Below, piece by piece: positions 38,657 through 57,082 of a DNA stretch of 64,000 nucleotides; position 1 is the first letter of the stretch, and the number at the start of each line of letters is the position of its first letter. A program made the position numbers and the translations under genes. A model generated the notes under the pieces. The model searched no databases. It was not told where the DNA came from and was given only the letters and a program-made list of their open reading frames with translations. Source of the stretch: Mycobacterium seoulense (lineage in GTDB: Bacteria > Actinomycetota > Actinomycetes > Mycobacteriales > Mycobacteriaceae); NCBI RefSeq assembly GCF_010731595.1, contig NZ_AP022582.1:2852001-2916000 (forward strand), given 5' to 3'.

Positions 38657-38673
38657 GAACAGATATTTGGTTC
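38657..38673 (+). promoter_or_regulatory. Operator site 1 (GAACAGATATTTGGTTC)
   Basis: The best match to the 17-bp palindrome found seven times in 38.6-57.1 kb. It lies between divergent starts at 38647 and 38752 and can control both. Confidence 0.75.
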
Positions 38674-38751
38674 AATTGCGGATGGGAATTGGCCGGGATG
38701 CCAAACGAGTAATTCGTTCTGCGCAAGCCGTGCCGTGGCGATAATGGTCGG

Positions 38752-40143
38752 GTGAAGCGGCTCAACGGCATGGATGCGATGCTCCTGTACAGCGAGACGC
38801 CGAACCTGCACACGCACACGTTGAAGGTGGCGATCGTCGACGCCGCCGACTACCCCGGCGACTTCGATTTCGAGCTGTTCCGCCACACCTTCCTGCGGCG
38901 GTTGCACCTCCTGGATCCGTTGCGCTACAAGCTCGTCGACATCCCCTGGCAACTGCATCATCCGATGTGGCTGCAGAACTGCGAGGTCGATCCCGACTAT
39001 CACCTGCGACGCATCCGGGTGCCCGGCGCCGGTGGTCGCCGGGAGCTCGACGGGGTCATCGGTGACATCGCCACCACCCCGCTGGACCGCGCCCGCCCGC
39101 TCTGGGAGTTCTATTTCGCCGAAGGTATGGCCGGCCACAGGTTCGCGATCATCGGAAAGCTGCACCACGCCCTGGCCGACGGGGTGGCGTCGGCGAACCT
39201 CTTGGCGAGAATGATGGATACGGCGGGCGCGATGCCCGACGAGCGCGACAGCGAGACGACCTGTGCGCGGCCGACGAGCGGCGAGCTGCTACGCGCGGCG
39301 GGACGCGACCATGCCCAACAGTTGGCCGCGCTGCCCCGAGTCGTGGCAGACGCGGTTTCCGGGGCGCGGCGGCTGCGCCGGCGCGCCCGTGAGCGCGGCA
39401 CGCAGCCCGACCTCGCCCGAATGCTGCACGCGCCGCCGACATTCATCAACCATGTGGTGTCGCCGGTGCGGACTTTTGCGACCGCGACGCTGTCGCTGGC
39501 ACAAGTGAAGCAGACCGGTAAAGCCCTGGGGATCACGGTCAACGACGTGGTGATGGCGAGCGCCGCGGGTGCGTTGCGGGAGTTGCTGTTGCGCTACGAC
39601 GGGAGCGCGGACCGACCGCTCGTCGCATCCGTGCCGGCGAGTACGGACAGGTCACCGAACCGGATCAGCGGCAACGAGCTCGGCGGCATGGCGGTGTCGC
39701 TGCCGACGCACATCGCCGACCCATTGGAGCGGGTGAAGCTCACAGCTACGAGCACCGCGATCGCCAAGGAAAACAACGAACTGTTCGGCCCCGAGCTGTA
39801 CGGCAAGTTGATCACCTACCTGCCGCCGTTCGCTGCCCACTCGGCCTTCAAATGGTTGGCCCGGCGGAATGCGCAGACCAGGCTGTTCAACCTCCCCGTG
39901 TCCAATGTCGCGGGGCCACGCGAGCAGGGGCGATTCGCCGGCGCTCCGGTCACTGAGATCTATTCGGCCGGTCCGCTGATCGCCGGGTGCGGCGTCAACA
40001 TCACCGTCTGGAGCTATGTCGACCAGCTCAACATCTCGGTCATCGCCGACGACCGCACCTTTGGCGACACTCATGAGATGACCGACGCCATGGTCTGCTC
40101 ATTCCGTGAAATCCATTCGGCGGCGGGGTTTTCCACGGGCTAG
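38752..40143 (+). CDS. Wax ester synthase/diacylglycerol acyltransferase (WS/DGAT)
   Basis: 463 aa from GTG 38752, starting MKRLNGMDAMLLYSETPNLH as family members do. The catalytic motif HHALADG is at residues 138-144. The second conserved region NDVVMASAAGALRELLL and the C-terminal LFNLPVSNVAGPREQ are present. It transfers acyl groups from acyl-CoA to alcohols or diacylglycerol, storing or masking lipid. Under operator site 1, so co-regulated with the P450 and dehydrogenase genes. Confidence 0.92.
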   Translation: MKRLNGMDAMLLYSETPNLHTHTLKVAIVDAADYPGDFDFELFRHTFLRRLHLLDPLRYKLVDIPWQLHHPMWLQNCEVDPDYHLRRIRVPGAGGRRELDGVIGDIATTPLDRARPLWEFYFAEGMAGHRFAIIGKLHHALADGVASANLLARMMDTAGAMPDERDSETTCARPTSGELLRAAGRDHAQQLAALPRVVADAVSGARRLRRRARERGTQPDLARMLHAPPTFINHVVSPVRTFATATLSLAQVKQTGKALGITVNDVVMASAAGALRELLLRYDGSADRPLVASVPASTDRSPNRISGNELGGMAVSLPTHIADPLERVKLTATSTAIAKENNELFGPELYGKLITYLPPFAAHSAFKWLARRNAQTRLFNLPVSNVAGPREQGRFAGAPVTEIYSAGPLIAGCGVNITVWSYVDQLNISVIADDRTFGDTHEMTDAMVCSFREIHSAAGFSTG

Positions 40144-40158
40144 CGCCGGGCCAGCGGC

Positions 40159-40950
40159 TCAGCCCAGAATGGGGAACCGCCGCTGGCGGGCCAGTTGGTC
40201 GAGCGCGGTCTGCATCCGCGACCGGATTTCCGCGTCGACTTCGGAAACGTCAGGGTCGCAGCCGAATCGGGCTGCCACGTCGATCGGGTGCAGAACCTGG
40301 GTGACGATCTTGGTGGGCAACGGGAGGTTGAACGGCACAATGGCGCTGAGCCCGAACGGAAATCCCAGGGTTACCGGCAGAATGTCTGACCGGAATCGGG
40401 ACAGGCCGAGCCGCCTCGCCAGCCAGGTGCCCCGCGTCAAGAACAGCTGGCTTTCCTGCCCGCCGATGGACACGGCCGGGACGATCGGCGCGCCTGCGTC
40501 GATGGCGCACCTGACATACCCGGTACGCCCGTTGAAGTCGATGACGTTTTCGGCCAGCGTCGGCCGGTAGGCATCGTAGATGCCGCCGGGGAAGACCAGC
40601 ACGACACCGCCCGACCGCAGCGCGTTGGTGGCGTTTTCCGTGCTGGCGTGGATCACGCCGAGGCGGGCCAGCCAGTCGGCCACCGGTCCGGGAAACAGTC
40701 CGTCGTGGCCGAGCGTGTAGAGCGGGCGGTCGTAGCCGAACGCGCCGTAGAAGGCCGCTGCGAAGATCAGCACATCGGGTGTCAGCATGCCGCCCGAATG
40801 GTTAGCCACCAGCAGGGCGCCGCCCGTGGCGGGGAACGCCTCCAGGCCACGCACCTCGTACCGAAACCAGCGCCGGGCAACGGGTTCGACGGCGCCGACC
40901 CACCGCTCGGTGAAGTCAGGATCCCACCCGGCGATCTCGGTGGTGCTCAC
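40159..40950 (-). CDS. PlsC-like lysophospholipid acyltransferase family protein
   Basis: 263 aa. The acyltransferase motif is VANHSGGMLTPD, with the HX4D spacing lengthened as in a known actinobacterial subgroup; the FPGG in VLVFPGGIYDAYRP takes the place of FPEG. No strong membrane helix is seen apart from LIFAAAFYGAFG. It overlaps the P450 stop by 4 bp and is therefore the second gene of that operon. It is probably an acyl-CoA:lipid or acyl-CoA:alcohol transferase. Confidence 0.82.
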   Translation of the reverse strand: MSTTEIAGWDPDFTERWVGAVEPVARRWFRYEVRGLEAFPATGGALLVANHSGGMLTPDVLIFAAAFYGAFGYDRPLYTLGHDGLFPGPVADWLARLGVIHASTENATNALRSGGVVLVFPGGIYDAYRPTLAENVIDFNGRTGYVRCAIDAGAPIVPAVSIGGQESQLFLTRGTWLARRLGLSRFRSDILPVTLGFPFGLSAIVPFNLPLPTKIVTQVLHPIDVAARFGCDPDVSEVDAEIRSRMQTALDQLARQRRFPILG

Positions 40951-42215
40951 GCGACCGGTGTGAACCCGAGGTGCAGCTCGGTGAGACCGCGCATCTGCCA
41001 GGTCGGTTCGTAGCTGTAGCGGCGCCCATCCGCCGGACCGTGCTGCGCCTCGACAATGCTGATGTCCGACATCCGATCGAGCACCCGGTTGAGCGAAATC
41101 CGTCCCTCCGCCCGCGCCAGCGGCGCACCGGGGCAGGAATGGTTGCCTCGCCCGAACGCCACATGCTCGCGGACATTCGGTCGATCGATGCGAAACTCGT
41201 TGGGTTGAACAAACTTACGCGAGTCGCGATTGCTCGCGCCGGGCAGCAGCATCACCGTGCTGCCTGCCGGGATTGGAATGTCGCCGATCGATGCCGAGGT
41301 GCGGGCCATGCGGAAGTGACACTTGACCGGGCTCTCCATGCGCAGCGTCTCTTCGACGAAAGTCGGAATCTTGCTGCGATCTTCGCGCAGCAAGGCCTGC
41401 AATTCGGGGTCCTCGGCGATCATCCGGAGGCCGAAGCTGAGCAGCTTCGTCGTGGTCTCCTGGCCGGCCGCGAAAAGGAAAGTCGCGAGCCGGACGACAT
41501 CGATGACCTCGGGGGTCGAACCGTCGGGATACTTGGCCTGAGCGAGCTCGGTCAGCACATCGTCCCGGGGTTCACGCCGGCGTTCGGTGATGTGGGCGGT
41601 GAACTTTTCGTCGAGGTACTCCAGCGGGTTGTGGGCGCGCGTTATCGAGTCGTCCTCGATTCCGCCCGAGACCTTGCCGGAGAAGGCGACACGGAACTCC
41701 TCGTGGTCTTCGGGCGGAACTCCCAGTAGGTCGGCGATCACCAGCCCCGAGAACGGCCGCGCGTAGTCATCGAGGAACTCACACGTGCCGCGGGACACGA
41801 ATTCGTCGAGCTGCTCATCCGCGAGCCGCCACATGAATTCTTCATTCTCCTTGAGCCGCTTGGGTGTCAGCAGCCGGCCGAGCAGCCCGCGCGTGCGGGC
41901 GTGTTCCGGCGGATCTTGGGTGACAATGTGTTCGCTCATTGGAATCTGCGAACGATGCTGTTCGATCAGCGCACCGATGTCGTCACCCTCGGGCTCGAAC
42001 GGCAATCCGGAGAACGGGCCCGCGACCGAGACACACGACGAGAACGCCGGGTCTTTGTAGACGGCGAGCGCTTCGGCGTGCCCGGTGATCGCCACCACGC
42101 CCGCCCCGGGCTGCGGCAGCACGGGGCAACGTTGCCGCAAGTGATCGAAATAGGGGTACGGGTCTGGGACCAGGGTCGGGTCACTGAAGAAATCGACCGA
42201 CTCGAAATCGCGCAA
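40947..42215 (-). CDS. Cytochrome P450
   Basis: 422 aa from TTG 42215, selected because GAGGAG lies 5 nt upstream; the frame is open to 42239. The I-helix oxygen motif is FLFAAGQETTTKLL, the K-helix ExxR is ETLRMESP, and the heme loop is FGRGNHSCPGAPLARAE, with Cys as the fifth ligand. It is soluble, so it needs a separate ferredoxin and reductase; none is in the window. Operator site 2 is 82 bp upstream of the start. The substrate is unknown, probably hydrophobic given the neighbours. Confidence 0.93.
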   Translation of the reverse strand: MRDFESVDFFSDPTLVPDPYPYFDHLRQRCPVLPQPGAGVVAITGHAEALAVYKDPAFSSCVSVAGPFSGLPFEPEGDDIGALIEQHRSQIPMSEHIVTQDPPEHARTRGLLGRLLTPKRLKENEEFMWRLADEQLDEFVSRGTCEFLDDYARPFSGLVIADLLGVPPEDHEEFRVAFSGKVSGGIEDDSITRAHNPLEYLDEKFTAHITERRREPRDDVLTELAQAKYPDGSTPEVIDVVRLATFLFAAGQETTTKLLSFGLRMIAEDPELQALLREDRSKIPTFVEETLRMESPVKCHFRMARTSASIGDIPIPAGSTVMLLPGASNRDSRKFVQPNEFRIDRPNVREHVAFGRGNHSCPGAPLARAEGRISLNRVLDRMSDISIVEAQHGPADGRRYSYEPTWQMRGLTELHLGFTPVA

Positions 42216-42296
42216 CGGAACTCCTCGGCTTCCAAGCAATCGCCCCCAGCGCAGGCCAACCGGGGCCTCACGAACCTAGACTCCAATGTACGATCT

Positions 42297-42313
42297 GAAC
42301 AAATATTAGGTCA
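42297..42313 (+). promoter_or_regulatory. Operator site 2 (GAACAAATATTAGGTCA)
   Basis: A 17-bp match between the divergent P450 (start 42215) and the small DUF2510-like gene (start 42446). Only the last two positions and one central base deviate from site 1. Confidence 0.7.
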
Positions 42314-42445
42314 AGGCGAGTGGCGCCGCGGTGGCGGGGCAGAGCATTCCCCTACGGTTTGACACCAGCTCTTCGGCGGCGCGTACCGCGGCGGTCATGT
42401 TCGGTTCATAGTTCCGGAAGCCTCAGCGACGTAGGGTGCCCCGAT

Positions 42446-42736
42446 GTGAGCACCCCTTCACCCGGCCCCGGCTGGTGGCTGGCATCGGACGGCAAGTGGT
42501 ATCCCCAGCAATGGGAAAGCACCTTCGTCGCGTACACGAACGAGTCGCTGCAAGCGGTGCTGGAGGAGGCGAACCGGCTGACGCAGGCCTACGGAGAACA
42601 GGGCTGGGAGATCGTCGGGTCATCGGTGCAACGCACCCAGGTCGCCCACCGCTTCAAGGACTACGACAAGGGCGGCGACCACTACTTCGAGTGGAGCATC
42701 GTCTGCACCCTGAAACGGCCCGTCGCACCGGGCTGA
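42446..42736 (+). CDS. 96-aa protein with DUF2510-like WW-type motif
   Basis: GTG 42446 (an ATG two bases earlier runs at once into a stop). The N-terminus STPSPGPGWWLASDGKWYPQ is the GWW..SDGKWYP motif of DUF2510-like segments found in actinobacterial surface and membrane proteins. The rest (LTQAYGEQGWEIVGSSVQRTQVAHRFKD) resembles small DUF4177-type beta proteins. The function is unknown. It faces the ALDH gene convergently with a long hairpin between. Confidence 0.7.
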   Translation: MSTPSPGPGWWLASDGKWYPQQWESTFVAYTNESLQAVLEEANRLTQAYGEQGWEIVGSSVQRTQVAHRFKDYDKGGDHYFEWSIVCTLKRPVAPG

Positions 42737-42748
42737 CGCCGCCGTCGC

Positions 42749-42805
42749 CGAGATTGCCGCGATGGTCGTGAAGGGGTCAAAACCACGGCCATAGCGGCAA
42801 TCTCG
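42749..42805. terminator. Long inverted repeat between convergent genes
   Basis: Arms 42749-42770 and 42784-42805 (22 nt each) match at 20 positions, with a 13-nt loop. The repeat lies 13 bp after one stop codon and 15 bp before the other. It is a candidate two-way terminator or a dispersed palindromic element. Confidence 0.6.
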
Positions 42806-42819
42806 TCGACAAATTCCCC

Positions 42820-44304
42820 CTAGCCGGCGGGGTAGCCGACCGATTTGATCTCGGTGTACTGGTCGAACCCGGCGACCCCGTTCTGCCGGCCCACCCCGCT
42901 GTACTTGTAACCGCCGAACGGGGTGTCGGCGCCGTACGGTGCGCCGCCGTTGACGCCCATGAAGCCGGCCCGGATCCGGCGGGCCACCGCCAGCGAGCGC
43001 TCCAGCGAGCCCGACATCACGTTGCCGGCCAGGCCGTACTTGCTGTCGTTGGCGATCCGGATCGCGTCCTCCTCGTCCTCGAACGGGATGACGGCGAGCA
43101 CCGGGCCGAAGATCTCCTCCTGGGCGATGGTCATGGAGTTGTCGACATCGGTGAAAAGCGTTGGCCTGACGTAGAAACCCTTGTCGAAGCCGGTGGGCGC
43201 GTCCGGCCCGCCGACGAGCGCGGTCGCGCCCTCTTCGACGCCCTTGCGGATGTAGCCCATCACGCGGTTGCGCTGCACCTCCGAGATCACCGGCCCGCAC
43301 AGCGTTCCCGGGTCCTGCGGGTCGCCGCACGTGACGTTCTCGTAGATGCTCTTGAGGATTTCCACGCCCTCGTCGTAGCGGGACCGCGGCAACAGCATCC
43401 GGGTGGGATTCGCGCAGCCCTGCCCGGCGTGCATGCAGGGTGCGATCCCGATCGCGCACGCCATGCCGAAGTCGGCGTCCTCCAACACGATGGTGGCCGA
43501 CTTGCCCCCGAGCTCGAGGAACAGCCGCTTCATGGTCGCGGCGCCCTTTTCCATGATCCGCTGCCCCACCACCGTCGACCCGGTGAAGGAGATCAGGTCG
43601 ACCTTGGGCGAGAGCGTAAGTTCCTCGCCCACAAAGTGATCCGACGCGGTGACGACGTTGACCACGCCCGCGGGGATGTCGGTCTTCTCGGCGATCAACC
43701 GGCCCAGCCGGGTCGCGTTGAACGGCGTGTTCGGCGCCGGCTTGAGCACCACGGTGTTGCCGGTGCCCAGCGCCTGCCCGAGCTTGTTGAGGGTCACCTC
43801 GAACGGGAAGTTCCACGGCACGATCGCGCCGACGACGCCCACCGGCTCGCGCCACACCTTGCGGGTGGTCAGCGTGCCGGTCAGGCTGATCACCTTGTCA
43901 CCCAGGTCGGTCTCCCAGGCGTACTCGTCGATCAACCTGGCGGGGTACTTCAGCCCGTCCTCCAGCGGGGCGTCCAGCTGGGGCCCGAAGGTGATGGCCC
44001 GCGGCGATCCCACCTCGAGGATCAGCTCCTCGCGCAGCTCTTCCTTCTCCGATTCGATCGCCTCGTGCAGCTGCAGCAGGCAACGCTTGCGCAGCTCCCG
44101 GTTGGTCGACCAGTCGCTCTCGTCGAAGGCGCGCCGGGCGGCGTCGATCGCGCGGTGCATGTCCTCCTTGGATGCGTCGGCGACCTCGCCGAGCGGCTCT
44201 TCGGTGGCGGGGTTGATGTTGGTGAAGGTGCCGGCTTGGCCGTCGACGAGCTTGCCGTCGATCATCATCTTCGGCTCGAAACGCACCTTTACAGCCTCGG
44301 TCAT
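42820..44304 (-). CDS. NAD(P)-dependent aldehyde dehydrogenase
   Basis: 494 aa from ATG 44304; the frame extends 25 codons further without support. The ALDH catalytic Glu is in ELGGKSATIVLED and the nucleophilic Cys in HAGQGCANPTRML; the cofactor motif FTGSTVVGQRIM is present. It oxidises an aldehyde to acid, probably the product of P450 oxidation and alcohol dehydrogenation. It is the last gene of the five-gene operon starting at 48856; the 90-bp gap before it is the largest in the operon. Confidence 0.94.
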   Translation of the reverse strand: MTEAVKVRFEPKMMIDGKLVDGQAGTFTNINPATEEPLGEVADASKEDMHRAIDAARRAFDESDWSTNRELRKRCLLQLHEAIESEKEELREELILEVGSPRAITFGPQLDAPLEDGLKYPARLIDEYAWETDLGDKVISLTGTLTTRKVWREPVGVVGAIVPWNFPFEVTLNKLGQALGTGNTVVLKPAPNTPFNATRLGRLIAEKTDIPAGVVNVVTASDHFVGEELTLSPKVDLISFTGSTVVGQRIMEKGAATMKRLFLELGGKSATIVLEDADFGMACAIGIAPCMHAGQGCANPTRMLLPRSRYDEGVEILKSIYENVTCGDPQDPGTLCGPVISEVQRNRVMGYIRKGVEEGATALVGGPDAPTGFDKGFYVRPTLFTDVDNSMTIAQEEIFGPVLAVIPFEDEEDAIRIANDSKYGLAGNVMSGSLERSLAVARRIRAGFMGVNGGAPYGADTPFGGYKYSGVGRQNGVAGFDQYTEIKSVGYPAG

Positions 44305-44394
44305 ATCTGTCACTCTCTTTTGAATCGCGGAGGGGCTATGGAGAGCCTTACCGGAAACTAGCCGATTGGCAAGCGCCAACGTCTGAGGGCCTGG

Positions 44395-45609
44395 TCATTG
44401 GGGGTCGAACAGCACCGGCACCGACGTGGGCGAGCGGAAGACCTGCCCGCGGATGTGCGGGTCGTCCGCGTCGGGGTCTAGCCGCAGGTTGGGCAGCCGG
44501 TCGAGCAAAAGGTTGACGGCGGTGCGCATTTCCAGCCGCGCCAGGTGCATGCCGAGGCAGACGTGCACGCCGTGCCCCCAGCCCAGGTGGGCCCTGGATG
44601 AGCGGAAGATGTCGAACCTGTCCGGATCGGGGTAGCGGTCTTCCTGGCGGTTGGCGGAGCCCAGCATCGGCATCACCGTCGAGCCTTCCGGTATCGGCAC
44701 CCCGCCGAGTTCGGTGTCCCGGGTGGCCACCCGGGTGATGGTCAGCAGGGGCGGCTCCCACCGCACGCCCTCCTCGATGGCCTGCGGCAGCAGCGACCGG
44801 TCCGCGCGGATGGCGTCCAGCTGTGTGGGATCCGAAAGCAGGCCCAGCAGCAGGCTGCCCAACGACCGGTACGTCGTCTCCACCCCGGCGGGCAGCAGCA
44901 GGCGCAGAAACGAGTAGATCTCCTCGTCCGCGAGCTTCTCCCCGTCGATCTCCGCCTCAGCCAGCGCGCTGATCAGATCGTCCTTGGGTTCGGCGCGGCG
45001 GGCCTGCAGGATAGGTGCGAAGTAGTCACAGAGCGCGGCCGAGGCGGCAAGGCCGCGTTCGGGGTTCAGGATCCAACTCAGCAACGAGATCGACCACCGC
45101 TGGAACTGCGGATAGTCCTCCTCCGGCAGGCCCAGCAGGCCCGCGATGATCTGGCTCGGGTAGTCGAAGGTGAATTCCTTGACCAGGTCGGCCTTTCCGT
45201 TCGCCGCGAACTTGTCGATCAGGCTGTTGCCCACCCGCCCGACAAGCTCGTCCTCCCAGCGCGCCAGGGCCTTCTGCGAGAACGCCTTTGACACCAGTGA
45301 CCGCAGCCGCCCGTGCACCGGTTCGTCCATGCCCAGCATGACGCGCTCCCCCAGCACCGGGCCGAACGCGGCGATGACGGCCGCAGACGAGAACGTCTCG
45401 TTGTCGCGCAGCATCTGCTGGGCTTCTTCGTAGCGGTAGACGATGAAGACCGGTTTGGATTCCTCATGCGGCATCCCGGAAACGTCCAGGCGCTGAACGG
45501 GGTCCTCGCGGCGCAGCCGCGCCAGTTCCGTGTACGGGTCGCGCACGTCGCCCGAGACCGCGTCGTCGAAGGCGCCGAAGTCCTCCAGGTCGTCGAAAAG
45601 CTGTTCCAT
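44395..45609 (-). CDS. Cytochrome P450
   Basis: 404 aa. I-helix LLLPAGVETTYRSL (Gly-Val in place of the usual Gly-x-Asp/Glu before Thr-Thr), ExxR in EEGVRWEPP, heme loop GWGHGVHVCLGMHLARLE. This is a different subfamily from the P450 at 40947. It follows the SDR by 2 bp and precedes the ALDH, so hydroxylation, alcohol oxidation and aldehyde oxidation functions are encoded in one operon. Confidence 0.93.
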   Translation of the reverse strand: MEQLFDDLEDFGAFDDAVSGDVRDPYTELARLRREDPVQRLDVSGMPHEESKPVFIVYRYEEAQQMLRDNETFSSAAVIAAFGPVLGERVMLGMDEPVHGRLRSLVSKAFSQKALARWEDELVGRVGNSLIDKFAANGKADLVKEFTFDYPSQIIAGLLGLPEEDYPQFQRWSISLLSWILNPERGLAASAALCDYFAPILQARRAEPKDDLISALAEAEIDGEKLADEEIYSFLRLLLPAGVETTYRSLGSLLLGLLSDPTQLDAIRADRSLLPQAIEEGVRWEPPLLTITRVATRDTELGGVPIPEGSTVMPMLGSANRQEDRYPDPDRFDIFRSSRAHLGWGHGVHVCLGMHLARLEMRTAVNLLLDRLPNLRLDPDADDPHIRGQVFRSPTSVPVLFDPQ

Positions 45610-45611
45610 TG

Positions 45612-46601
45612 TTACCCCTCATTTCCCCTGCGGCGCTTCGCCGCCAGCGCGGCCAAGCGTTGCAACACCGGCTGCGGTAGAACGCGCGCCGCGAACACCA
45701 TCGCCCGTTGGCCCACCGTCAGCGGCCAGGCGCCGTCCCGCATCGAACCCTGCCTGGGTATGCCAAGCACGACCCGCGACATGTGATGCATGCCGGAAGC
45801 CGGCAGGATCCTGTTGGCCGCCAACAGCATCGACGCATCCGGTCCGATCCCGCGGCGGCGGAAGGGCACCCGGTCATCCAGCGCCTTGACCAGGCCGTCG
45901 GCGAACCGCTCGGGTGGCCTGGCGAGTTTCATCGCGGCCCTGCCCCGGCTGTTCATGGTGTTGTGCAGCCGGGCGTACGGACCGCCGAGGTCGCGATCGT
46001 CGGTGGTGCCCGCGTCGGTGATGATCTCGGTGTCGTACGTGCCGGCAACCAGGACGGTGACGCCCAGTCCGAAGGGCGCGATCTCGCACGCCATCGCTTC
46101 ACCCCACCGCTCCAACGCGCCCTTGGCCGCCGAGTACGGCGCGGTGGCCGGCTGGCCGCGCACCCCGGCCGCACTGGAGACCAGGACGATGCGTCCCTCG
46201 CCGGCCGCCCGCATCGATGGCAGCAATGCCTGGGTGAGCGCAACCGGGCCCATGACGTTGGTTTGGAACATCCTGTGCCACAAGGCCATATCGGTCTCTT
46301 CCACCATTCCGGCGGCGGAGATCCCGGCGTTGTGCACCAGCGCATAGGGAGCGCCGACGGCTTCCTCGATGGCCTTGGCCGCCGCTGAGATCGACGCGGG
46401 ATCGAGCAGGTCGAGCTGCACGCCGACCAGCCGGTCGTCGTCGTGCGCGGCCCCGGTGGCCTCCCGCAGCAGCGGGAGCCCGCCGTCGGGTGTGCGCATG
46501 GCCGCGACCACGCGCCAGCCTTCGCGGTACAGGCGCACCGCCGACGCGAACCCCAGACCTCGGGACGCGCCGGTGATGACGACGCTGCGCGGCTCAGCCA
46601 T
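45612..46601 (-). CDS. SDR-family oxidoreductase
   Basis: 329 aa from ATG 46601. Cofactor motif VVITGASRGLGFASA, NAG motif LVHNAGISAAG, catalytic VLVSSAAGVRGQPATAPYSAAKGALERW. The C-terminal extension is basic. It is probably an alcohol/ketone oxidoreductase. It overlaps the AveC-like gene by 8 bp and abuts the P450. Confidence 0.9.
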   Translation of the reverse strand: MAEPRSVVITGASRGLGFASAVRLYREGWRVVAAMRTPDGGLPLLREATGAAHDDDRLVGVQLDLLDPASISAAAKAIEEAVGAPYALVHNAGISAAGMVEETDMALWHRMFQTNVMGPVALTQALLPSMRAAGEGRIVLVSSAAGVRGQPATAPYSAAKGALERWGEAMACEIAPFGLGVTVLVAGTYDTEIITDAGTTDDRDLGGPYARLHNTMNSRGRAAMKLARPPERFADGLVKALDDRVPFRRRGIGPDASMLLAANRILPASGMHHMSRVVLGIPRQGSMRDGAWPLTVGQRAMVFAARVLPQPVLQRLAALAAKRRRGNEG

Positions 46602-47736: not shown

Positions 47737-47743
47737 TGCAGCC

Positions 47744-48896: not shown

Positions 48897-48913
48897 AAAC
48901 CTAATATTTGTTC
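48897..48913 (-). promoter_or_regulatory. Operator site 3 (GAACAAATATTAGGTTT on minus strand)
   Basis: 41 bp upstream of the first gene of the operon SBP-AveC-SDR-P450-ALDH. The first 15 bases are identical to site 2. Confidence 0.7.
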
Positions 48914-48944: not shown

Positions 48945-49787
48945 TCATCCGGCCGCGCCGCCCAGGTAGATCTCGATCATCTCGCCCAGGGCCCTGCCCA
49001 CCGCCACGTCGTCGGTGAGCGGTCCCGCTATCGCGGCCCGGGCCGCCTCCCGCATGGTGAGCCCCTCCGCCACCAGCCTGCCCGCGGCGATCAGCACGCG
49101 GGTCGACGCGACCTCGCGCAGCCCGCCGGTTTCCAGCCGGCGGATGGCCTGCCCTAAACGCACCAGTTCCGCGGCGGTGACACCGTCCACGCCGGCCTCG
49201 TGCGCGACGATCCCCTGTTCGACATCGGCTGCGGGGAAATCGAATTCGATGGCGACCATCCGCTGCCGGGTCGAATCCTTGAGGTCTTTCAGCACGCTCT
49301 GATAGCCGGGGTTGTAGGACACCACCAGGCCGAACCCGGGCGCCGCGTCCAGCGTGACGCCGAGACGCTCGATCGGCAGCTGCCGCCGGTGATCCGCGAG
49401 CGGATGCAGGACCACGGTGGTGTCCTGGCGGGCTTCCACCACCTCGTCGAGGTAGCAGATCGCCCCTTCGCGCACCGCGCGCGTCAGCGGGCCGTCAACC
49501 CACACGGTTTCGTCGCCCTGCAGCAGGTACCGGCCGACCAGGTCGGCGGTGGTGAGGTCGTCATGGCAGGCGACCGTGATCAGCGGCCGGCCGAGATCGT
49601 GAGCCATGGCCTCGACGAATCGGGTCTTGCCACAACCCGTGGGCCCCTTCAGGACCAGCGCCAGACCCTGGCGGTACGCCGCCTTGAAAATGGCTTCCTC
49701 GCCGCCGATCGCCTTGTAGTAGGGGCGCGACCCCTCGGCCTCGGGCATCGCGCCGTTGCGGTGCACCAGCCCGGACTCGTTGGCCAT
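48945..49787 (-). CDS. MoxR-type AAA+ ATPase of the NorQ/NirQ/CbbQ group
   Basis: 280 aa from ATG 49787 (AGGGGAA upstream). Walker [13 protein letters not shown], Walker [10 protein letters not shown] and the group signature VVSYNPGYQ are present. NorQ/CbbQ proteins pair with a VWA protein (NorD/CbbO) and remodel or activate a metalloenzyme. The VWA partner follows upstream at 49896-51587. No nitric oxide reductase or RuBisCO is in the window, so the client is different, perhaps an enzyme of this block. Confidence 0.9.
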
Positions 49788-49828
49788 AGCTTCCCCTTTG
49801 CTACCCACGGTGAAGCGAGCCTATCGCG

Positions 49829-49845
49829 GAACAGATGTTTGTTTC
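49829..49845 (+). promoter_or_regulatory. Operator site 4 (GAACAGATGTTTGTTTC)
   Basis: 42 bp upstream of the AAA+ ATPase start, in the 108-bp gap after the VWA gene. Two bases deviate from site 1. Confidence 0.7.
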
Positions 49846-49895
49846 AAGCTCCCTGACGAGCCGGTTTAGGCTCGACAACCCAATCCCGTAGCCCG

Positions 49896-51587
49896 TCATG
49901 ACACCCTGCGCCGGACCTCGGCCGAGCGCAGCGCGGACCGGAAAAGCGGGCCGATCACGCCCGCGAGTTGGTCCGGGCGCGCGATCGTGGCGTGTGCGGC
50001 GCTACCGAACACCCGGCGCAGCGATTGCACGTCGGTGCCCGCGCCGACGGTCAAGCACACGCAGCCGGTGCCGCGGCGGCGGGCCTCGGTCAAGGCGCGG
50101 CGGGCATCGGCGGCACCGTAGGCCCGCTCGTAGCCGTGGTCGTAGGCCAGTCCATCGGACAGCACCACCAGCAGCCGTCGCGACGTACCGCCGCGCGCCT
50201 CCAGCACCGCCGATCCGTGCCGGATGGCCGCGCCCAGGCGCGAATACGCTCCCGGCTCGAGGCTGTTGAGCCGCCGCATGACTCGGGCGTCGAGGTGGTC
50301 GTCGAACCGCTTGACCGGCACCATGTTCACCGCGTGCCGGCCCTGCGAGTAGTAGGCGTAGAGCGCGACCCGGTCACCCAGGTCGTGCAGGGCGACCATG
50401 AGGTTGGCGACCGCCGTGCGCTGTTGCTCGTGCACCGTGCGCCCGACCGTGCCGGGCTCCGCGGCCGACCCCGACACATCGAGCAGAAGGAGCACCGACA
50501 GATCTCGCCGGCGCCGCAGGCTGTCGAGGTACACCGCCTCGTCGGGCACCGACCCCGCCAGCACCTCGACGCGAGCCTCGACCGCCGCGTCGATGTCGAT
50601 GTCGTCGCCCTGCGTCTGCCGGTGGCGGCGGTGCAGGCCCATCCCGAGCCTAGACAGCGGGCGGCGCACGCTGACCGCGGCTTCGATCGCATGCGTCGCC
50701 GACGTTTTGATCTCGGCCTCGACCTCGCGCACGGTGCACCACGCCGGCCGGTACATCCTTCGCCCGACGTCCCATTCCGGGTAGGTGACACCGTCGGTGG
50801 ACTTCGGCTGGTCCCCGTCCTCCCCGCTCGACGTGGCGGCCAGCGACGTCACCGCGTGCAATCCGCGCTTGGCGGAGTTGGTCCGATGCGTCGGGGTATC
50901 CGCGCCGGGTGGTCCCCCGCCGCTCCCGGTCTTGCGCGCCGACGAGAGCATCTTCTTCAGCCACTTGCCGATGAAACCGCCCCCGCCCACCGGGCTGGTG
51001 AACATGTCGGGATCGTCGCAATCGTCGGTCTCGCCGTCGTCGAGTTCCGCCAGTTCGCTGGTGGCGGGGCGCCTCGGTACGTGCTGGGGGTTTTCCTTGT
51101 CCCGCCGTTCGGCCGCCCGGGCGCAGGCGGCCAGCACCTTCGCCGCGCGGATGACGCCGAATTCCGGTGCCGCATCGCCGATCGCCATCCGCCCGTTGGC
51201 GATCCGCAGCGAAGCCGCGGGCGAATCGCTGCGCCGCGCGGTGTCGGGGTCGCCCAGGGACGCCAGCACACCCGGCAGCAGGTCGGCATTGGCGGCGAGC
51301 GCGCGGTGCCCCTCCACCGCCAGGTAGCGCTTGGCCACCCGTGGGCGGCGCAGCAGGCGGCGCATCACGTCCGGATCCAGGCTACCGGCCGCGATCATCG
51401 ACGCCTGCACGGCAACGGCTTCGAGCTGCCCGCGGGCGCTCGCACCGGCATCGACGTGAATGGTCTGGCCGTGGGTCCATGACGGTTCGCCCGGACCCAC
51501 TTCGGCGACCGCCACGGCCCGGCCCGCCAGCGCGGACGCGAGCATGCCGAGGCCCGGCAACCGGTCACCCCGAACGTCGGTGGACAC
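49896..51587 (-). CDS. VWA-domain protein, NorD/CbbO-like partner of the AAA+ ATPase
   Basis: 563 aa from GTG 51587, with GGAG 7 nt upstream; the frame extends to 51623 but would run into operator site 5. The C-terminal von Willebrand A domain has a full MIDAS: DVSGS (in LLLLDVSGSAAEP), a Thr region and the distal Asp in LVVLSDGLAYDHGYE. The middle is low-complexity and acidic (DDGETDDCDDPD), and the N-terminal part is helical. By analogy it recruits the client for the neighbouring ATPase. Confidence 0.87.
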   Translation of the reverse strand: MSTDVRGDRLPGLGMLASALAGRAVAVAEVGPGEPSWTHGQTIHVDAGASARGQLEAVAVQASMIAAGSLDPDVMRRLLRRPRVAKRYLAVEGHRALAANADLLPGVLASLGDPDTARRSDSPAASLRIANGRMAIGDAAPEFGVIRAAKVLAACARAAERRDKENPQHVPRRPATSELAELDDGETDDCDDPDMFTSPVGGGGFIGKWLKKMLSSARKTGSGGGPPGADTPTHRTNSAKRGLHAVTSLAATSSGEDGDQPKSTDGVTYPEWDVGRRMYRPAWCTVREVEAEIKTSATHAIEAAVSVRRPLSRLGMGLHRRHRQTQGDDIDIDAAVEARVEVLAGSVPDEAVYLDSLRRRRDLSVLLLLDVSGSAAEPGTVGRTVHEQQRTAVANLMVALHDLGDRVALYAYYSQGRHAVNMVPVKRFDDHLDARVMRRLNSLEPGAYSRLGAAIRHGSAVLEARGGTSRRLLVVLSDGLAYDHGYERAYGAADARRALTEARRRGTGCVCLTVGAGTDVQSLRRVFGSAAHATIARPDQLAGVIGPLFRSALRSAEVRRRVS

Positions 51588-51616
51588 GCTCAATCTCCGA
51601 ACCGCCTGGACTCCGT

Positions 51617-51633
51617 TGACCAAATATCTGTTC
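51617..51633 (-). promoter_or_regulatory. Operator site 5 (GAACAGATATTTGGTCA on minus strand)
   Basis: Lies between the divergent VWA gene (start 51587) and SDR gene (start 51680). Identical to site 1 except for the last two bases. Confidence 0.72.
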
Positions 51634-51679
51634 CACCGTAGAGTCCGGTGCCACGGCAGTCAATCAGGGCAAGGAGCAC

Positions 51680-52657
51680 ATGGTGATTGACTTCACCGGG
51701 CAGGTCGCGGTCGTCACCGGCGCGGGCCGCGGACTGGGTCGGCTGTACGCGTTGGACCTGGCGCGCCGCGGCGCCGCGGTGGTGGTCAATGACATCGGGA
51801 GCTCGATGCGCGGCGAGGGCACGGACTCCCGCGTCGCCGACGACGTGGTCAACGAGATCAAGACGGCCGGTGGCACCGCGATCGCCTCCTACGACTCGGT
51901 CGACAGCCCCGCGGGCGGCCAGGCGATCATCGACGCGGCCGCCGGTGCGTTCGGGCGGTTGGACGCGGTCATCAGCAACGCCGGCATCTTCGGCACCGTC
52001 GCATTCGAGGACCTCTCGCTCGACGACTGGTCCCGGATGCTGCGGGTGCATCTCGACGGCGGCTTCCATCTGTCGCAGCCGGCGTACCGCGTGATGAAGA
52101 ACAACGGGGGCGGCCGGTTCGTGTTCATCTCGTCGTCCGCCGGGATCTTCGGTCAGCCGATGGAGGCCCACTACGCCGCGGCGAAGGCGGGCCTGGTGGG
52201 GTTGACGAACGTGATCGCGATCGAGGGCGAGGCGCACGGCATCGTCGCGAACTCCGTTATGCCGACCGGCTTCTCACGCATGGTGACCGAGACCGTCGGC
52301 GACGAGAAGTTCCTCGCCGAATCCGGCTTCATGCAGGCCATCAGACCCGAACTCGTCGTGCCGCTGGTGACCTTCCTCGCCAGCAGCGCGTGCAGGTTCA
52401 CCCACCGCAATTATTCGGCCGCCGCCGGCCGCTACGCGCGCGTGTTCGTCGGACTGAGCGAGGGATGGCTCGCGGACGCCCAGAGCCAACCGACGGCCGA
52501 AGACATCCAGGCGCACCTCGAGGAGATCTCGTCGACGGAGAAGTTCTTCGTGCCCGCGTCGATCGTGGACGAGGTGCTCGAAGTATGTGCGCGACGCGGC
52601 GTCAGCGCGATGCCGGGCGGGGCCGACGTCGCCTTCCCCGAACCACCGGGGAGCTAG
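51680..52657 (+). CDS. SDR dehydrogenase, multifunctional-enzyme-2-like
   Basis: 325 aa. Cofactor motif VTGAGRGLGRLYALDLARRGAAVVVND, NAG, and catalytic ISSSAGIFGQPMEAHYAAAKAGL. The GRGLGR...DLARRGAAVVVNDIG pattern is that of the 3-hydroxyacyl-CoA dehydrogenase part of peroxisomal MFE-2/17beta-HSD4. AAGGAG lies 3 nt before ATG 51680 and 6 nt before GTG 51683, so GTG may be the true start. First gene of the plus-strand unit with the two acyl-CoA dehydrogenases and the nitroreductase. Confidence 0.9.
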   Translation: MVIDFTGQVAVVTGAGRGLGRLYALDLARRGAAVVVNDIGSSMRGEGTDSRVADDVVNEIKTAGGTAIASYDSVDSPAGGQAIIDAAAGAFGRLDAVISNAGIFGTVAFEDLSLDDWSRMLRVHLDGGFHLSQPAYRVMKNNGGGRFVFISSSAGIFGQPMEAHYAAAKAGLVGLTNVIAIEGEAHGIVANSVMPTGFSRMVTETVGDEKFLAESGFMQAIRPELVVPLVTFLASSACRFTHRNYSAAAGRYARVFVGLSEGWLADAQSQPTAEDIQAHLEEISSTEKFFVPASIVDEVLEVCARRGVSAMPGGADVAFPEPPGS

Positions 52658-52747
52658 GGCTACGCGCTGTCGCCGACGTTGTTGACCGGCTATCGGCTCA
52701 ACCGTAAAGTCCGGCTAGGTCGCAAATTCACCAGAGAACAAGGAAAA

Positions 52748-53893
52748 GTGGACTTTTCATACCCGGCGGAAGTGGAGCAGTTCCGCATCGAGCTGCGCGA
52801 CTGGCTATCGGAGAACCTGACCGACGAGCTGGTGGCCGCGCGTCGGCCCTCCGGACGCGATGACGCCGCGTTCGAGATGCTGCGCGCGTGGAGCGCGACG
52901 ATGGCCGATGCGGGCTGGGCCGCGGTCTCGTGGCCTCGCGAGTACGGCGGCCGCGGCGCGACGGTTCTCGAGCAACTGGTCTACACCGAGGAAACCACGC
53001 GGGCCCGAGCCCCCATGCCGCTCAACGTCATTGGGCTCAACAACATCGCGCCGGCCATCATGCAATACGGAACGGAGTCACAGAAGCTCGCGCTGCTCCC
53101 CCGCATGATGCGCGCCGACGACATCTGGTGCCAAGGGATGTCGGAACCCGAAGCGGGGTCCGATCTCGCGGCACTGCGCACTCGCGCGGTGCGCGATGGT
53201 GACGACTTCGTCGTCAACGGCCAGAAGATCTGGACGTCGCTCGGGCATCGGGCGGACTGGTGCCAGCTATACGTGCGCACTGATCCCGAAGCGCCCAAGC
53301 ACAAGGGCATCTCCTGCCTGATCGTCGACATGACACTGCCCGGCATCGAAGTGCGTCCGCTGGTGACGCTCAACGGCGACGCCGATTTCGCCGAGGTCTT
53401 CTTTCACGACGTGCGCGTGCCGGCGGACGCGTTGCTCGGGCCGCTGAATGGCGGCTGGCGGGTGGCCACCACCACGCTCAGCCACGAGCGCGCCGGCGCT
53501 GCCCGGCTGTACGCCGAAATGCAGGTTCGGCTCGAAGAATTGGCCGACGACATCGCCGCGCACACCGACGCGCTCGCAGACCCCGTGACTTTGCGGCGCC
53601 TCGGTGAAATCGCGCTTCGCATCAAGTATCTGGAAGTCCTGTGCCAGAGGTCGATCTCGGCCACGCTGCACGGCGGTGACGCGTTCGGGTCGGCCAGCCT
53701 CGCCAAGACCGTGTGGGGGGAAATCGGGCAGGACATGGCCGCCCTGGCCTTCGACGTGCTGGGCACCAGCGGCGCCGGCGCGCCGTGGGCGAACTACCGC
53801 CTGACGTCGCGCTCGCTCACCATCGCGGGCGGCACCAGTCAGATCAACAAGAACATCACCGCCCAGCGGGTTCTGGGGTTGCCGCGCACATGA
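52748..53893 (+). CDS. Acyl-CoA dehydrogenase, first subunit (catalytic Glu position not conserved)
   Basis: 381 aa from GTG 52748 (AAGGA upstream). FAD/substrate motifs: WCQGMSEPEAGSDLAALRT and IWTSLGHRADWC. At the end, SLTIAGGTSQINKNI stands where active medium-chain enzymes have YEGTSQIQ, so the usual catalytic Glu is Gly here. The next gene overlaps by 4 bp and supplies a candidate Glu. This is the pattern of mycobacterial heteromeric FadE pairs acting on steroid side-chain CoA esters. Confidence 0.92.
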   Translation: MDFSYPAEVEQFRIELRDWLSENLTDELVAARRPSGRDDAAFEMLRAWSATMADAGWAAVSWPREYGGRGATVLEQLVYTEETTRARAPMPLNVIGLNNIAPAIMQYGTESQKLALLPRMMRADDIWCQGMSEPEAGSDLAALRTRAVRDGDDFVVNGQKIWTSLGHRADWCQLYVRTDPEAPKHKGISCLIVDMTLPGIEVRPLVTLNGDADFAEVFFHDVRVPADALLGPLNGGWRVATTTLSHERAGAARLYAEMQVRLEELADDIAAHTDALADPVTLRRLGEIALRIKYLEVLCQRSISATLHGGDAFGSASLAKTVWGEIGQDMAALAFDVLGTSGAGAPWANYRLTSRSLTIAGGTSQINKNITAQRVLGLPRT

Positions 53894-54993
53894 ACCTCGA
53901 ACTCACCGACGAACAGGTGGCGCTGCGCGACACCACGCGCCGCTATCTCGCGGAAAAGGCGTCCGTCTCCGATCATGTGCGCCCGCTGCTCGACGGCCCG
54001 ACCGGCACCACCGAACCTGTGTGGCGCGGCCTGGCCGGGCTCGGGACCACCGGCCTGCTGGTGCCGGAGGACTACGGCGGCGCCGGCATGACGATGGTGG
54101 AGGCCGGAATCGTTGCCGAAGAACTCGGTGCCGCCCTGCACCCGGGCCCGTGGTTGTCGACCGCGGTCGCCGCGGCCCGGGCGCTGACGCGGCTCGGCGC
54201 CACCGCCGCCGCGGCCGAGCTGCTCACCGGGATCGCCGACGGCACCACGGTCGCCACCGTGTGCTTCCTGAATGCCGACACCGCGTCGGTCGCCGCGAGC
54301 CGCCAAGGCGGCGACGTCGTGTTGCGAGGCGAAATCGCCGCCGTACCCGACGCCGCCGCCGCGGACGTGCTGTTGGCCCTCGCCGAGGACGACGGCGGTC
54401 CAGGGCTTTTCGCGGTGCGGACCGCGTCGCCGGGTGTCTCGGTCGCCCCCGAGCGCGGTATCGACCAGACCCGCAAGCAGTTCCGGGTGGCGTTCGACTC
54501 GGCGCCCGCACAGCGACTCGCCACGGCGTCACCGGCGGATGCCGCGGCGGTGATTGACGACGTGTTGATCGCCACCGCCGCCGACGCGCTCGGTGCCGCG
54601 CGAGCCGTCATGACCATGGCCATCGAATACGCCAAAACCAGAACGCAATTCGGGCAGCCGATCGGCTCGTTCCAGGCGGTCCAGCATTTGTGCGTCGACA
54701 TGTTCGAGACCGTCGAATTGGCCCGCAGCGGTGTGATCCACGCGCTGTGGGCCGCCGACAACGCCGACGCCGACGAGCGGCACCAGTCCGCCATCCGGAC
54801 GAAGGCGTTCGCCGGGCGCCTCGCCACGGTGGGCGACACGGCCATCCAGGTGTTCGGCGGAATCGGCTACACCTGGGAGCACGACGCGCACCTCTACCTC
54901 AAGCGCCTGCTGAGCTGGAGCGCGTTCCTGGCTGGGCCGGACCGATACCTCACCGAACTCGGTGCGCGCCTTGCGAACAGGGGTCATCGGTGA
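53890..54993 (+). CDS. Acyl-CoA dehydrogenase, second subunit (candidate catalytic Glu present)
   Basis: 367 aa from ATG 53890, overlapping the previous stop (ATGA). The N-terminal half is divergent and shortened (missing the clear EPEAGSD motif). The C-terminal half has KTRTQFGQPIGSFQAVQH and FGGIGYTWEHDAHLYLKR, where Glu in TWEHD is the likely base. It probably forms an alpha2beta2 enzyme with the upstream protein. Confidence 0.92.
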   Translation: MNLELTDEQVALRDTTRRYLAEKASVSDHVRPLLDGPTGTTEPVWRGLAGLGTTGLLVPEDYGGAGMTMVEAGIVAEELGAALHPGPWLSTAVAAARALTRLGATAAAAELLTGIADGTTVATVCFLNADTASVAASRQGGDVVLRGEIAAVPDAAAADVLLALAEDDGGPGLFAVRTASPGVSVAPERGIDQTRKQFRVAFDSAPAQRLATASPADAAAVIDDVLIATAADALGAARAVMTMAIEYAKTRTQFGQPIGSFQAVQHLCVDMFETVELARSGVIHALWAADNADADERHQSAIRTKAFAGRLATVGDTAIQVFGGIGYTWEHDAHLYLKRLLSWSAFLAGPDRYLTELGARLANRGHR

Positions 54994-55640
54994 TGGATAT
55001 CGAATACCTCCTCACCGCCACCCGCTCGGCGCGCAAGACGCTCGACGTGGACGCGCCGGTCGACCTCGCGGACATCCGGGAGTGCCTGCGCATCGGTTTG
55101 CAAGCGGCCAACGGGTCCAATCAGCAGTCCTGGCGGTGGCTCGTGGTCAGCGACCCGGCTTTGCGCAACGAGATCGCCGAGCTGTACCGCGCGGCGTACC
55201 TGCTGCGGGTCGGTGGCCGGCTGATCGCCGACCTGATGCCGGGGGGGACGCCCGAAGGCCGGATCATGTCGTCGACGGAGTGGTTGGTCACCAACATGGC
55301 GAGGGTTCCGCTGCTGGTGATTCCCTGCTACCAGCCCTACCTGCCGCGCATCGAGGGCGACGAATCATTTCACCAGGCCACACTCTACGGCTCGATCTTC
55401 CCGGCAGTGTGGAACTTTCAGCTGGCGCTGCACACCCGGGGCTACGGCACCTGCATCACCACCCTGCATCTGCATCGCGAGCAGGAGGTGCGGCGGTTGC
55501 TCGGGATTCCCGAAACCTATGTCCAGGGATGTCTGCTTCCGGTGGGCCGGCTGCGCGCCGGGCACACGTTCCGGCCCGCCCGGCGACGGCCCGTCGGCGA
55601 GGTGGTCGCGAGTGACGGTTGGGACGGGCCCGCGTTCTAG
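54993..55640 (+). CDS. Nitroreductase-family flavoprotein
   Basis: 215 aa from ATG 54993 (or the overlapping GTG 54990). FMN-binding features: TATRSARKTLD, GLQAANGSNQQSWRWLVVSD and the end GYGTCITTLHLHREQEVRRLLGIPETYVQGCLLPVGR. Family members reduce nitro groups, enones or quinones with NAD(P)H. In this setting an ene-reduction or dehydrogenation is more probable than nitro chemistry. It overlaps the acyl-CoA dehydrogenase stop. Confidence 0.87.
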   Translation: MDIEYLLTATRSARKTLDVDAPVDLADIRECLRIGLQAANGSNQQSWRWLVVSDPALRNEIAELYRAAYLLRVGGRLIADLMPGGTPEGRIMSSTEWLVTNMARVPLLVIPCYQPYLPRIEGDESFHQATLYGSIFPAVWNFQLALHTRGYGTCITTLHLHREQEVRRLLGIPETYVQGCLLPVGRLRAGHTFRPARRRPVGEVVASDGWDGPAF

Positions 55641-55698
55641 AATGGTCCCCGTCACCGCCGCTATGCAGCGCATTCGTCGCGCCCGGTCTGATAACCTT

Positions 55699-55715
55699 TA
55701 ACAAAGATTTGGTTC
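55699..55715 (+). promoter_or_regulatory. Operator site 6 (TAACAAAGATTTGGTTC), autoregulatory
   Basis: 46 bp upstream of the tandem TetR gene. It suggests that the regulator controls its own gene. Confidence 0.68.
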
Positions 55716-55761
55716 GGCGAGAGGGACGAATGCGAATGGATGCCAGTCCGCAGTCGTCCGG

Positions 55762-57060
55762 ATGCGCGCACCGCTGATCATGCCGAAAGCGGAGTCATTG
55801 CGAGCCGGCGCCACAGCCGATCTGGGTACGCGCCGAACCGAAATCCTGACCACGGCGGCCTCGTTGATCGCGCAATCGGGATTACGCACGTCGTTGCAGG
55901 AGATCGCCGACGCGGCCGGCATTCTGCCCGGCAGTCTCTATCACCACTTCGAGTCCAAAGAAGCGATCCTCATCGAGTTGATCCACCGCTATCAGGACGA
56001 TCTGGACCGGATCGGGCAAGCCGCGCAAGCGAAGTTGGACAAAGCCGACCCGCGCCCCGTCCCCGAGCAGATTGTCGAGCTGGGCTCGGCCATCGCCAAC
56101 TGCGCCGTGCAGCACCGCGCCGCGTTACAGATGTCGTTCTACGAGGGGCCGAGCACGGACCCGGAGTTGATGAAACTGACGCAGCAGCGGCCCGTGGCCA
56201 TCCAGGAGGCGATGCTGCAGACGCTGCGCGCCGGCAGGTGGAGCGGCTACATCAAACCCGACATCGACCTGCCCACGTTGGCCGACCGGATCTGCCAGAC
56301 CATGCTGCAGGTCGGCCTTGACGTCATGCGTCACAAGTCCCCCGCCGACCAGGTGGCCGCGCTGCTTTGCCGAATCATGTTGCAGGGGCTGGCAACCCGG
56401 CCGCCCACCGACTCGGCGCTCGACCGGTCCAATGCCTTCGCAGCCGCCAGGGACGTCATCGCAACGTGGTCGGACGACAGCGAGGCCGACCCCAGCGACA
56501 AGGCGGCGCACGTCCGCGCGGTGGCGCGAACGGAATTCGGCCGCAAGGGCTACGAGGCCACCACCATCCGGGACATCGCCTCCGCGGCCGGCCTGGGCAC
56601 CGGAACCGTCTACCGGGTGATCGGATCCAAGGACGAACTTCTCGCGTCGATCATGGAATCGTTCGGCCGCAAGGTCGAGGCAGGCTGGGTCGACGTCCTG
56701 CGCGCGGATGCCACGCCCATCGAAAAGCTTGACGCGCTGAGCTGGGTCAACGTCAACGCCCTCGATCGGTTCTCCGACGAATTCCGCATTCAGCTCGCGT
56801 GGATGCGGCAATCACCGCCGGACACTCCCAACCCGGGCTGGCTGTACGCGACCCGGCTTCGGCAGATGAAAACGCTTCTTTCCGAAGGCATCCGCTCCGG
56901 GGAGATCAGTGTGGACGCGGCATCCACCACGATGCTCGCGCGGTGCGTCATCGGCCTGCAGTGGATACCGGAGAACATTCTTGCCGAGGTCGGCAAACGC
57001 GCCGCGCTGGTGCACGTCCGCGACACGGTTTTGCGTGGCGTCGCGGTTCGCGCCGGGTAG
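55762..57060 (+). CDS. Tandem (double) TetR-family regulator, probable master regulator of the block
   Basis: 432 aa with two complete TetR units. Helix-turn-helix 1 (about 25-75): EILTTAASLIAQSGLRTSLQEIADAAGILPGSLYHHFESKEAIL. Helix-turn-helix 2 (about 250-300): ARTEFGRKGYEATTIRDIASAAGLGTGTVYRVIGSKDELL. Each is followed by a ligand-type helical domain. Mce3R is a known mycobacterial regulator with this double architecture, but the sequence is not close. The start is ATG 55762; an ATG at 55780 (MPKAES) is also possible. Operator copies lie before it and before the next gene. Confidence 0.92.
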   Translation: MRAPLIMPKAESLRAGATADLGTRRTEILTTAASLIAQSGLRTSLQEIADAAGILPGSLYHHFESKEAILIELIHRYQDDLDRIGQAAQAKLDKADPRPVPEQIVELGSAIANCAVQHRAALQMSFYEGPSTDPELMKLTQQRPVAIQEAMLQTLRAGRWSGYIKPDIDLPTLADRICQTMLQVGLDVMRHKSPADQVAALLCRIMLQGLATRPPTDSALDRSNAFAAARDVIATWSDDSEADPSDKAAHVRAVARTEFGRKGYEATTIRDIASAAGLGTGTVYRVIGSKDELLASIMESFGRKVEAGWVDVLRADATPIEKLDALSWVNVNALDRFSDEFRIQLAWMRQSPPDTPNPGWLYATRLRQMKTLLSEGIRSGEISVDAASTTMLARCVIGLQWIPENILAEVGKRAALVHVRDTVLRGVAVRAG

Positions 57061-57065
57061 GTGTT

Positions 57066-57082
57066 GAACCAAAAAACTGTTA
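57066..57082 (-). promoter_or_regulatory. Operator site 7 (TAACAGTTTTTTGGTTC on minus strand)
   Basis: 55 bp upstream of the SDR gene at 57138 and 6 bp after the regulator stop. The half-sites are kept, but the centre is an A/T run. Confidence 0.62.

Follow-up and report, generated by a model that had tools for sequence, protein, structure and literature searches.

A directional 17-bp element as the probable operator of a double TetR-family regulator in Mycobacterium seoulense

INTRODUCTION

Few studies have dealt with double TetR proteins. One known member is Mce3R of Mycobacterium tuberculosis, a double TetR repressor whose operator is asymmetric (PDB 9b7y); passages of the paper on it cite 204 predicted double TetR proteins in Actinomycetes and report the first structure of one (PMC11667970). 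Here we analyze a 64,000-nucleotide stretch of Mycobacterium seoulense (the window; genome positions 2852001 to 2916000 of contig NZ_AP022582.1, the single contig of a 5.53-Mb genome). It contains a 17-bp element that recurs seven times in a gene block encoding a 432-aa double TetR-family regulator, here called DTR. A preliminary description of this sequence had proposed that the element is one operator and that DTR runs a single, self-contained regulon from it.

Like Mce3R, DTR combines two TetR units in a single chain of about 400 aa, and its probable operator is asymmetric. In contrast, the DTR site is 17 bp and nearly palindromic, whereas Mce3R has two 25-bp sites 53 bp apart, as given in passages of PMC11667970. 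A survey of the motifs of 30 conserved TetR regulators likewise describes the Mce3R motifs, in the part of its text that we cite, as larger and more complex (PMC4482099). KstR2 is a TetR repressor of cholesterol catabolism, and the N-terminal half of DTR resembles KstR2 chains. Chain lengths indicate that KstR2 has one unit in about 200 aa, whereas DTR has 432 aa and two unlike units; KstR2 binds a palindrome, according to a passage of PMC4482099, and the DTR site is directional. BkaR, which runs a local mycobacterial TetR regulon (part of PMC3920632), is likewise a TetR-type regulator over nearby metabolic genes, but DTR is a double-unit protein and has one target far away.

The preliminary description called the system undescribed. 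That holds for this regulator and its operator in the open-access papers that we searched, where we found no description of either; this is weak evidence of absence, as most subscription papers lay outside that scope. It does not hold for the kind of regulator, which is known from Mce3R (PMC11667970, cited in part). The member, the operator, and the regulon appear to be new.

RESULTS AND DISCUSSION

The element in the window and the genome

Our comparisons make it very probable that the 17-bp element is the DTR operator and that DTR, as an Mce3R-like double TetR repressor, controls the units at eight sites. The regulon would have at least eight operator places. The genus-wide conservation of the element together with DTR supports a single regulon with one operator, as first proposed, which DTR most likely runs and auto-regulates. 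Sites, conservation, orientation, promoter overlap, co-occurrence, and fold come from sequence and prediction, and from them we infer binding, repression, ligand, and pathway.

The seven sites start at 38657, 42297, 48897, 49829, 51617, 55699, and 57066 and differ from the consensus KAACARATATTTGGTTC at 0, 3, 2, 2, 2, 1, and 2 positions, respectively. At up to three mismatches, KAACARATATTTGGTTC had these seven matches in the window and no other, against 0.03 expected, and 0 of 100 shuffles reached seven. The preliminary description was therefore right about both the positions of the seven sites and the lack of a further copy in the window. We also carried out the whole-genome motif search that it proposed. 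At the same stringency, the genome held 10 matches, 7 of them in the block, and a reversed-pattern control gave 0. When scored with a matrix refined on relatives, the three matches outside the block reached at most 13.6, compared with 23.8 to 32.4 for the seven sites, and we rejected them as regulon members. As read by eye from translations of open reading frames (ORFs), one of the three (L007:1501-1517, three mismatches) is at a LexA-like gene's start and is similar to the mycobacterial SOS box, another precedes a PPE-like gene by 229 bp, and the third lies within a P450-like ORF.

We generalized the pattern from relatives to NAACARWNNTTWGKTY, which has exactly eight exact places in the genome, namely, the seven sites and 2208706-2208720; because KAACARATATTTGGTTC misses the eighth site, we rejected it as a full description. 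NAACARWNNTTWGKTY has seven matches in the window, with 0.00 expected. Allowing one mismatch added seven places in the genome, one overlapping operator 4 on the other strand and one at about 39771 in the window, and the reversed pattern had ten places at up to one mismatch (exact and one-mismatch places pooled). Since NAACARWNNTTWGKTY was derived from these sites and their counterparts in relatives, these counts test completeness more than significance.

The eighth site (G000:C1:2208705-2208721, outside the window) has four mismatches to KAACARATATTTGGTTC and lies 682 kb from the block, which does not support the proposal that the regulon is self-contained. It is flanked by two divergent genes. 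The minus-strand gene encodes a DapB-like protein (PF19328) and has a luciferase-like (LLM) gene behind it. On the plus strand is DapB1, which shares 96% identity with a relative's protein in which PF19328 and DapB_N were matched. Of the 148 genus genomes, 44 had a DapB1 homologue (E ≤ 1e-170): 44 of the 92 with the regulator and 0 of the 56 others (Fisher 5e-12). A site scoring at least 16 was present in 38 of 43 DapB1 upstream stretches, this genome included, and in 1 of 860 mononucleotide-shuffled stretches; the 44th gene is cut at a contig edge, and the five misses include a 121-bp stub. In some relatives, DapB1 lies near the regulator, at about 2.5 to 4 kb in G039 and G144.

Conservation across the genus

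The preliminary description also proposed a search of related mycobacteria, and in these the motif is conserved with the regulator. We collected 80 orthologous loci, the best 80 of 451 stretches encoding a DTR relative, and the seven-site matrix gave 346 matches of score at least 20 over their 1.58 Mb. The first 20 loci had 89 matches, whereas 19 of 20 column-permuted matrices gave 0 and the other gave 2. Among 20 more distant, hand-picked loci (regulator identity, 53 to 74%), 19 had a site of score at least 20, mostly beside the same genes despite a reshuffled gene order. Matrix-free alignment agreed with this. In five of five upstream regions (80, 46, 57, 61, and 65 distinct sequences), the best-conserved 17-mer overlapped the operator by 15 to 17 of 17 bp, with an identity of 0.914 to 0.959 against region means of 0.69 to 0.84.

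We next give the gene starts that carry the site in relatives, at a refined-matrix score of at least 16 over 119 loci (L041 to L159), of which L147 to L156 and L158 were included because they bear sites. The regulator gene had the site at 87 of 101 starts, 76 in the same orientation as the gene, in line with the copy at 55699 that was described upstream of DTR. The site was found at 75 of 81 starts of PBP6 (same orientation in all 75), 74 of 83 of CbbQ (opposite in all 74), 74 of 76 of VWA (constantly same), 48 of 61 of SDRb (constantly opposite), and 64 of 71 of SDRc (opposite in all 64). For genes of the eighth-site type, the counts were 10 of 10 for DapB1, 16 of 24 for LLM, and 1 of 11 for DapB2. 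ACAD1 had it at 43 of 73 starts; the window ACAD1, second behind SDRb, has none. Lower counts were found for P450a (2 of 6), ALDH (4 of 22), and NmrA (1 of 66). No site was found upstream of P450b (0 of 28), SDRa (0 of 67), AveC (0 of 27), ACAD2 (0 of 73), or NTR (0 of 38), all of which are unit-internal in the window.

Co-occurrence of element and regulator

DTR homologues (E ≤ 1e-40) occur in 92 of the 148 genomes, own genome counted. We compared them with exact matches to GAACARATNTTWGKTY, which fits five of the seven window sites: 91 genomes had both, 1 had only the regulator, 2 had only the motif, and 54 had neither (Fisher 8e-37). Reversed GAACARATNTTWGKTY was found in 0 of 148. One genome with the motif and no regulator at E ≤ 1e-20, G005, is 84% complete and in 720 contigs. 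The PBP6 gene (E ≤ 1e-120) is present in 89 genomes, 88 of the 92 with the regulator and 1 of the 56 others, again G005. Window and genome counts, shuffles, permuted matrices, and co-occurrence together led us to reject a chance origin of the sites.

Several observations weigh against DTR as the controller of all these units. In G053, the regulator is accompanied only by a weak site (score 18.5) that lies 66 bp before the regulator gene, and the distant locus L139 has no site that reaches 20. G089 has one site (L158:5126-5142, score 26.5) and no regulator at E ≤ 1e-20; no DapB1 or LLM gene was placed beside this site at the thresholds used, and we regard it as a remnant or chance. Of the 87 sites at regulator starts, 11 have the reverse orientation, and a hexamer scan found no good −35 at the regulator's promoter in the window. 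By a simple hexamer scan, the promoter of the eighth site is also poor, and the training set of the matrix used in the DapB1 upstream test included a few loci with the DapB1/LLM target. MDMPI and WS/DGAT showed no site of score at least 16 at two testable relatives' starts each. Finally, the block is co-inherited with the regulator, so co-occurrence alone cannot separate DTR from a hypothetical other regulator; PBP6 and DapB1 are nearly confined to regulator-positive genomes, so target loss without regulator loss could not separate them either.

This co-inheritance leaves room for the sites to serve another regulator while DTR controls something else, which we consider unlikely. Of the 56 genomes that lack DTR, 54 also lack the exact motif, the regulator's own promoter so often bears the site, and we found no further transcription factor among the 20 block ORFs scanned. 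Mce3R itself is also an unlikely binder. This genome has a separate gene for an Mce3R relative (L170, G000:C1:1697927-1698199; 88% identical over a 91-aa query), and this also led us to reject DTR as the Mce3R orthologue. There was no operator match of score at least 8 in 18 stretches from 12 genomes, including this one; these stretches were picked by the Mce3R-like gene, with mce3 neighbors unchecked.

The regulator protein

DTR is encoded at 55762..57060 on the plus strand, with a start at 55762 or 55780. The two TetR units that had been reported are borne out by two PF00440 stretches for the TetR_N helix-turn-helix (HTH) domain (Pfam, E 7.8e-28). The predicted model (pTM 0.83) aligns with Mce3R 9b7y over 364 residues at 4.3 Å and 18% identity, and the match covers residues 16 to 429, spanning both halves. 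Against solved chains, the N-terminal half found KstR2 at E 4e-14, second after RHA5900.

A paralogue clade with about 53 to 55% identity to DTR is present at L138 and L139 and as a second regulator copy near the end of L125. Its aligned members have altered residues in the second recognition helix, and nearby sites are few or weak. This clade is possibly a natural case of HTH-operator covariation, seen at three loci only (L125, L138, and L139).

Site architecture and promoters

The site is directional, with a left half GAACARAT and a right half ATTWGGTY. The inner pair CARAT/ATTTG is symmetric, as is the outer pair GAAC/GTTC, but the two centers are half a base apart, which makes the half-sites unequal. 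When 262 non-redundant sites were scored in reverse, 0 scored as well (median, 28.3 versus 10.0); the directional matrix had picked these sites, which biases the count, and the matrix-free alignments also gave unequal halves. In a logo of the 262 sites, the signal was confined to the 17 bp and a weaker TA-rich stretch at −7 to −5, the location of −10 hexamers.

Site orientation follows the promoters, from whose hexamers we placed the transcription start points. Sites pointing against their gene span the −35 and spacer of TTGA(A/C)(A/C)-17/18-TAnnnT promoters. These are operator 1, GAACAGATATTTGGTTC (38657..38673, plus strand; minus-strand promoter TTGAAC-18-TAGAGT), between the MDMPI-like gene (minus) and WS/DGAT (plus); operator 2 (42297..42313, plus; TTGACC-18-TACATT on the minus strand), upstream of P450a (minus); operator 4 (49829..49845, plus; TTGAAA-18-TAGGCT on the minus strand), upstream of the CbbQ-like gene; operator 7 (57066..57082, minus; TTGAAC-17-TACAGT on the plus strand), upstream of SDRc; and, for SDRb, operator 5 (51617..51633, minus). 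Sites pointing with their gene start 1 to 2 bp behind the −10. These are operator 3 (48897..48913, minus; TTGACG-17-TAGGGT, site directly behind the −10), upstream of the PBP6-AveC-SDRa-P450b-ALDH unit; operator 6 (55699..55715, plus; −10-like TAACCT just before the site), upstream of the regulator gene; and, for VWA, operator 5, which lies at both promoters of the divergent VWA (TTGACT-17-TACGGT) and SDRb (TTGACC-17-TAGAGT) genes. With CbbQ taken to start at 49787 and SDRc at 57138, our distances agree to about 1 bp with the 42, 41, 46, and 55 bp from site to gene given in the preliminary description.

By analogy with Mce3R, the two halves of DTR most likely pair within one chain, and its two different HTH domains would each recognize one of the unequal halves of a single directional site. 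Bound DTR would block RNA polymerase in two ways. At a site pointing against the gene, it would cover the −35 and spacer of a sigma-70-type promoter; at a site pointing with the gene, it would sit 1 to 2 bp behind the −10, over the presumed start point. Between VWA and SDRb, a single site could do both. A ligand, probably a pathway substrate or coenzyme A (CoA) intermediate, would free DTR from the DNA, and release would induce the units at all eight sites jointly, including the DTR gene and the unit 682 kb away. We have middling confidence in the fuller account, in which DTR, as a two-headed TetR repressor in one chain, recognizes a directional 17-bp operator with polarity fixed per promoter genus-wide, silences both divergent arms by two modes, and coordinates a conserved, uncharacterized catabolic pathway split between distant loci. 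DTR adds to the double TetR proteins a member with a sharply defined operator and natural variation across 92 of 148 sampled genomes, and it lends itself directly to tests of how a single chain with two unlike HTH domains may read unlike half-sites.

TetR-family activators have been described (part of PMC12455991), and DTR could bind the sites as an activator. We find this improbable, as each of the six sites with recognizable promoters lies over the −35 and spacer or directly behind the −10, where a bound protein should block polymerase, and none of the six is clear upstream of the −35. That the element is a special promoter sequence for an alternative sigma factor, as its AT richness and location at promoters might suggest, is scarcely credible, since ordinary −35 and −10 hexamers adjoin it at six of eight sites in two opposite registers and it is nearly absent where DTR is absent.

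The gene block

We labeled the genes from Pfam scans of 20 block ORFs. Operator 1 lies between the MDMPI_N-domain gene (PF11716; 37988..38647, minus), whose true start probably lies farther downstream, given that the predicted −10 overlaps the start at 38647, and the wax ester synthase/DGAT gene (WS/DGAT; 38752..40143, plus), a possible target. In one relative, a site scoring 19.0 on the seven-site matrix lies 34 bp before WS/DGAT; of all parts of the regulon, these two targets have the weakest support. The acyltransferase gene (AT, PF01553; 40159..40950, minus) overlaps P450a by 4 bp and had no site of score at least 16 at its two testable relatives' starts. For cytochrome P450a (40947..42239, minus), the nearest solved structure is CYP150A6 (6dcd, E 1.7e-181); the related CYP150A5 converts beta-ionone to 4-hydroxy-beta-ionone, according to part of PMC6237146.

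The largest unit of the block begins with the Peripla_BP_6 gene (PBP6; 47744..48856, minus) and continues on the minus strand with AveC-like (46594..47874), short-chain dehydrogenase SDRa (45612..46751), cytochrome P450b (44395..45609; best solved match, CYP125MRCA), and aldehyde dehydrogenase (ALDH; 42820..44379) genes. By eye, PBP6 has no obvious N-terminal signal peptide, and no ABC permease was among the 20 ORFs; PBP6 could be a cytosolic ligand binder. The CbbQ/NorQ-type AAA ATPase gene (48945..49808, minus; start at 49808 or, more likely, 49787) and the VWA-domain gene (49896..51623, minus; true start probably near 51587) form a pair inside the oxidative block (48945-51623), each with a separate operator and with no client enzyme evident. 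CbbQ-type ATPase/VWA pairs usually serve metalloenzyme activation.

SDRb (51680..52657, plus) leads a plus-strand unit with two acyl-CoA dehydrogenase genes, ACAD1 (52679..53893; best solved matches, Tcur3483 and the steroid side-chain enzyme 4x28) and ACAD2 (53713..54993), and a nitroreductase-family gene (NTR; 54690..55640, true start probably downstream). Beyond the regulator gene are SDRc (57138..57980, plus; start at 57117 or 57138) and, downstream of it, the gene for the NAD(P)H-binding protein NmrA (58072..58731, plus), whose regulon membership is uncertain. With two P450s, SDRs, ALDH, two ACADs, LLM/DapB-like oxidoreductases, and acyltransferases, the gene content suggests oxidative breakdown of an alicyclic, terpenoid-, steroid-, or isoprenoid-like compound, and the regulon would join scattered oxidative genes into one probable pathway. 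On another contig of the relative G081, a site identical to operator 5 (L156:4956-4972) lies upstream of an SDRb-like gene (40%), a possible case of regulon expansion.

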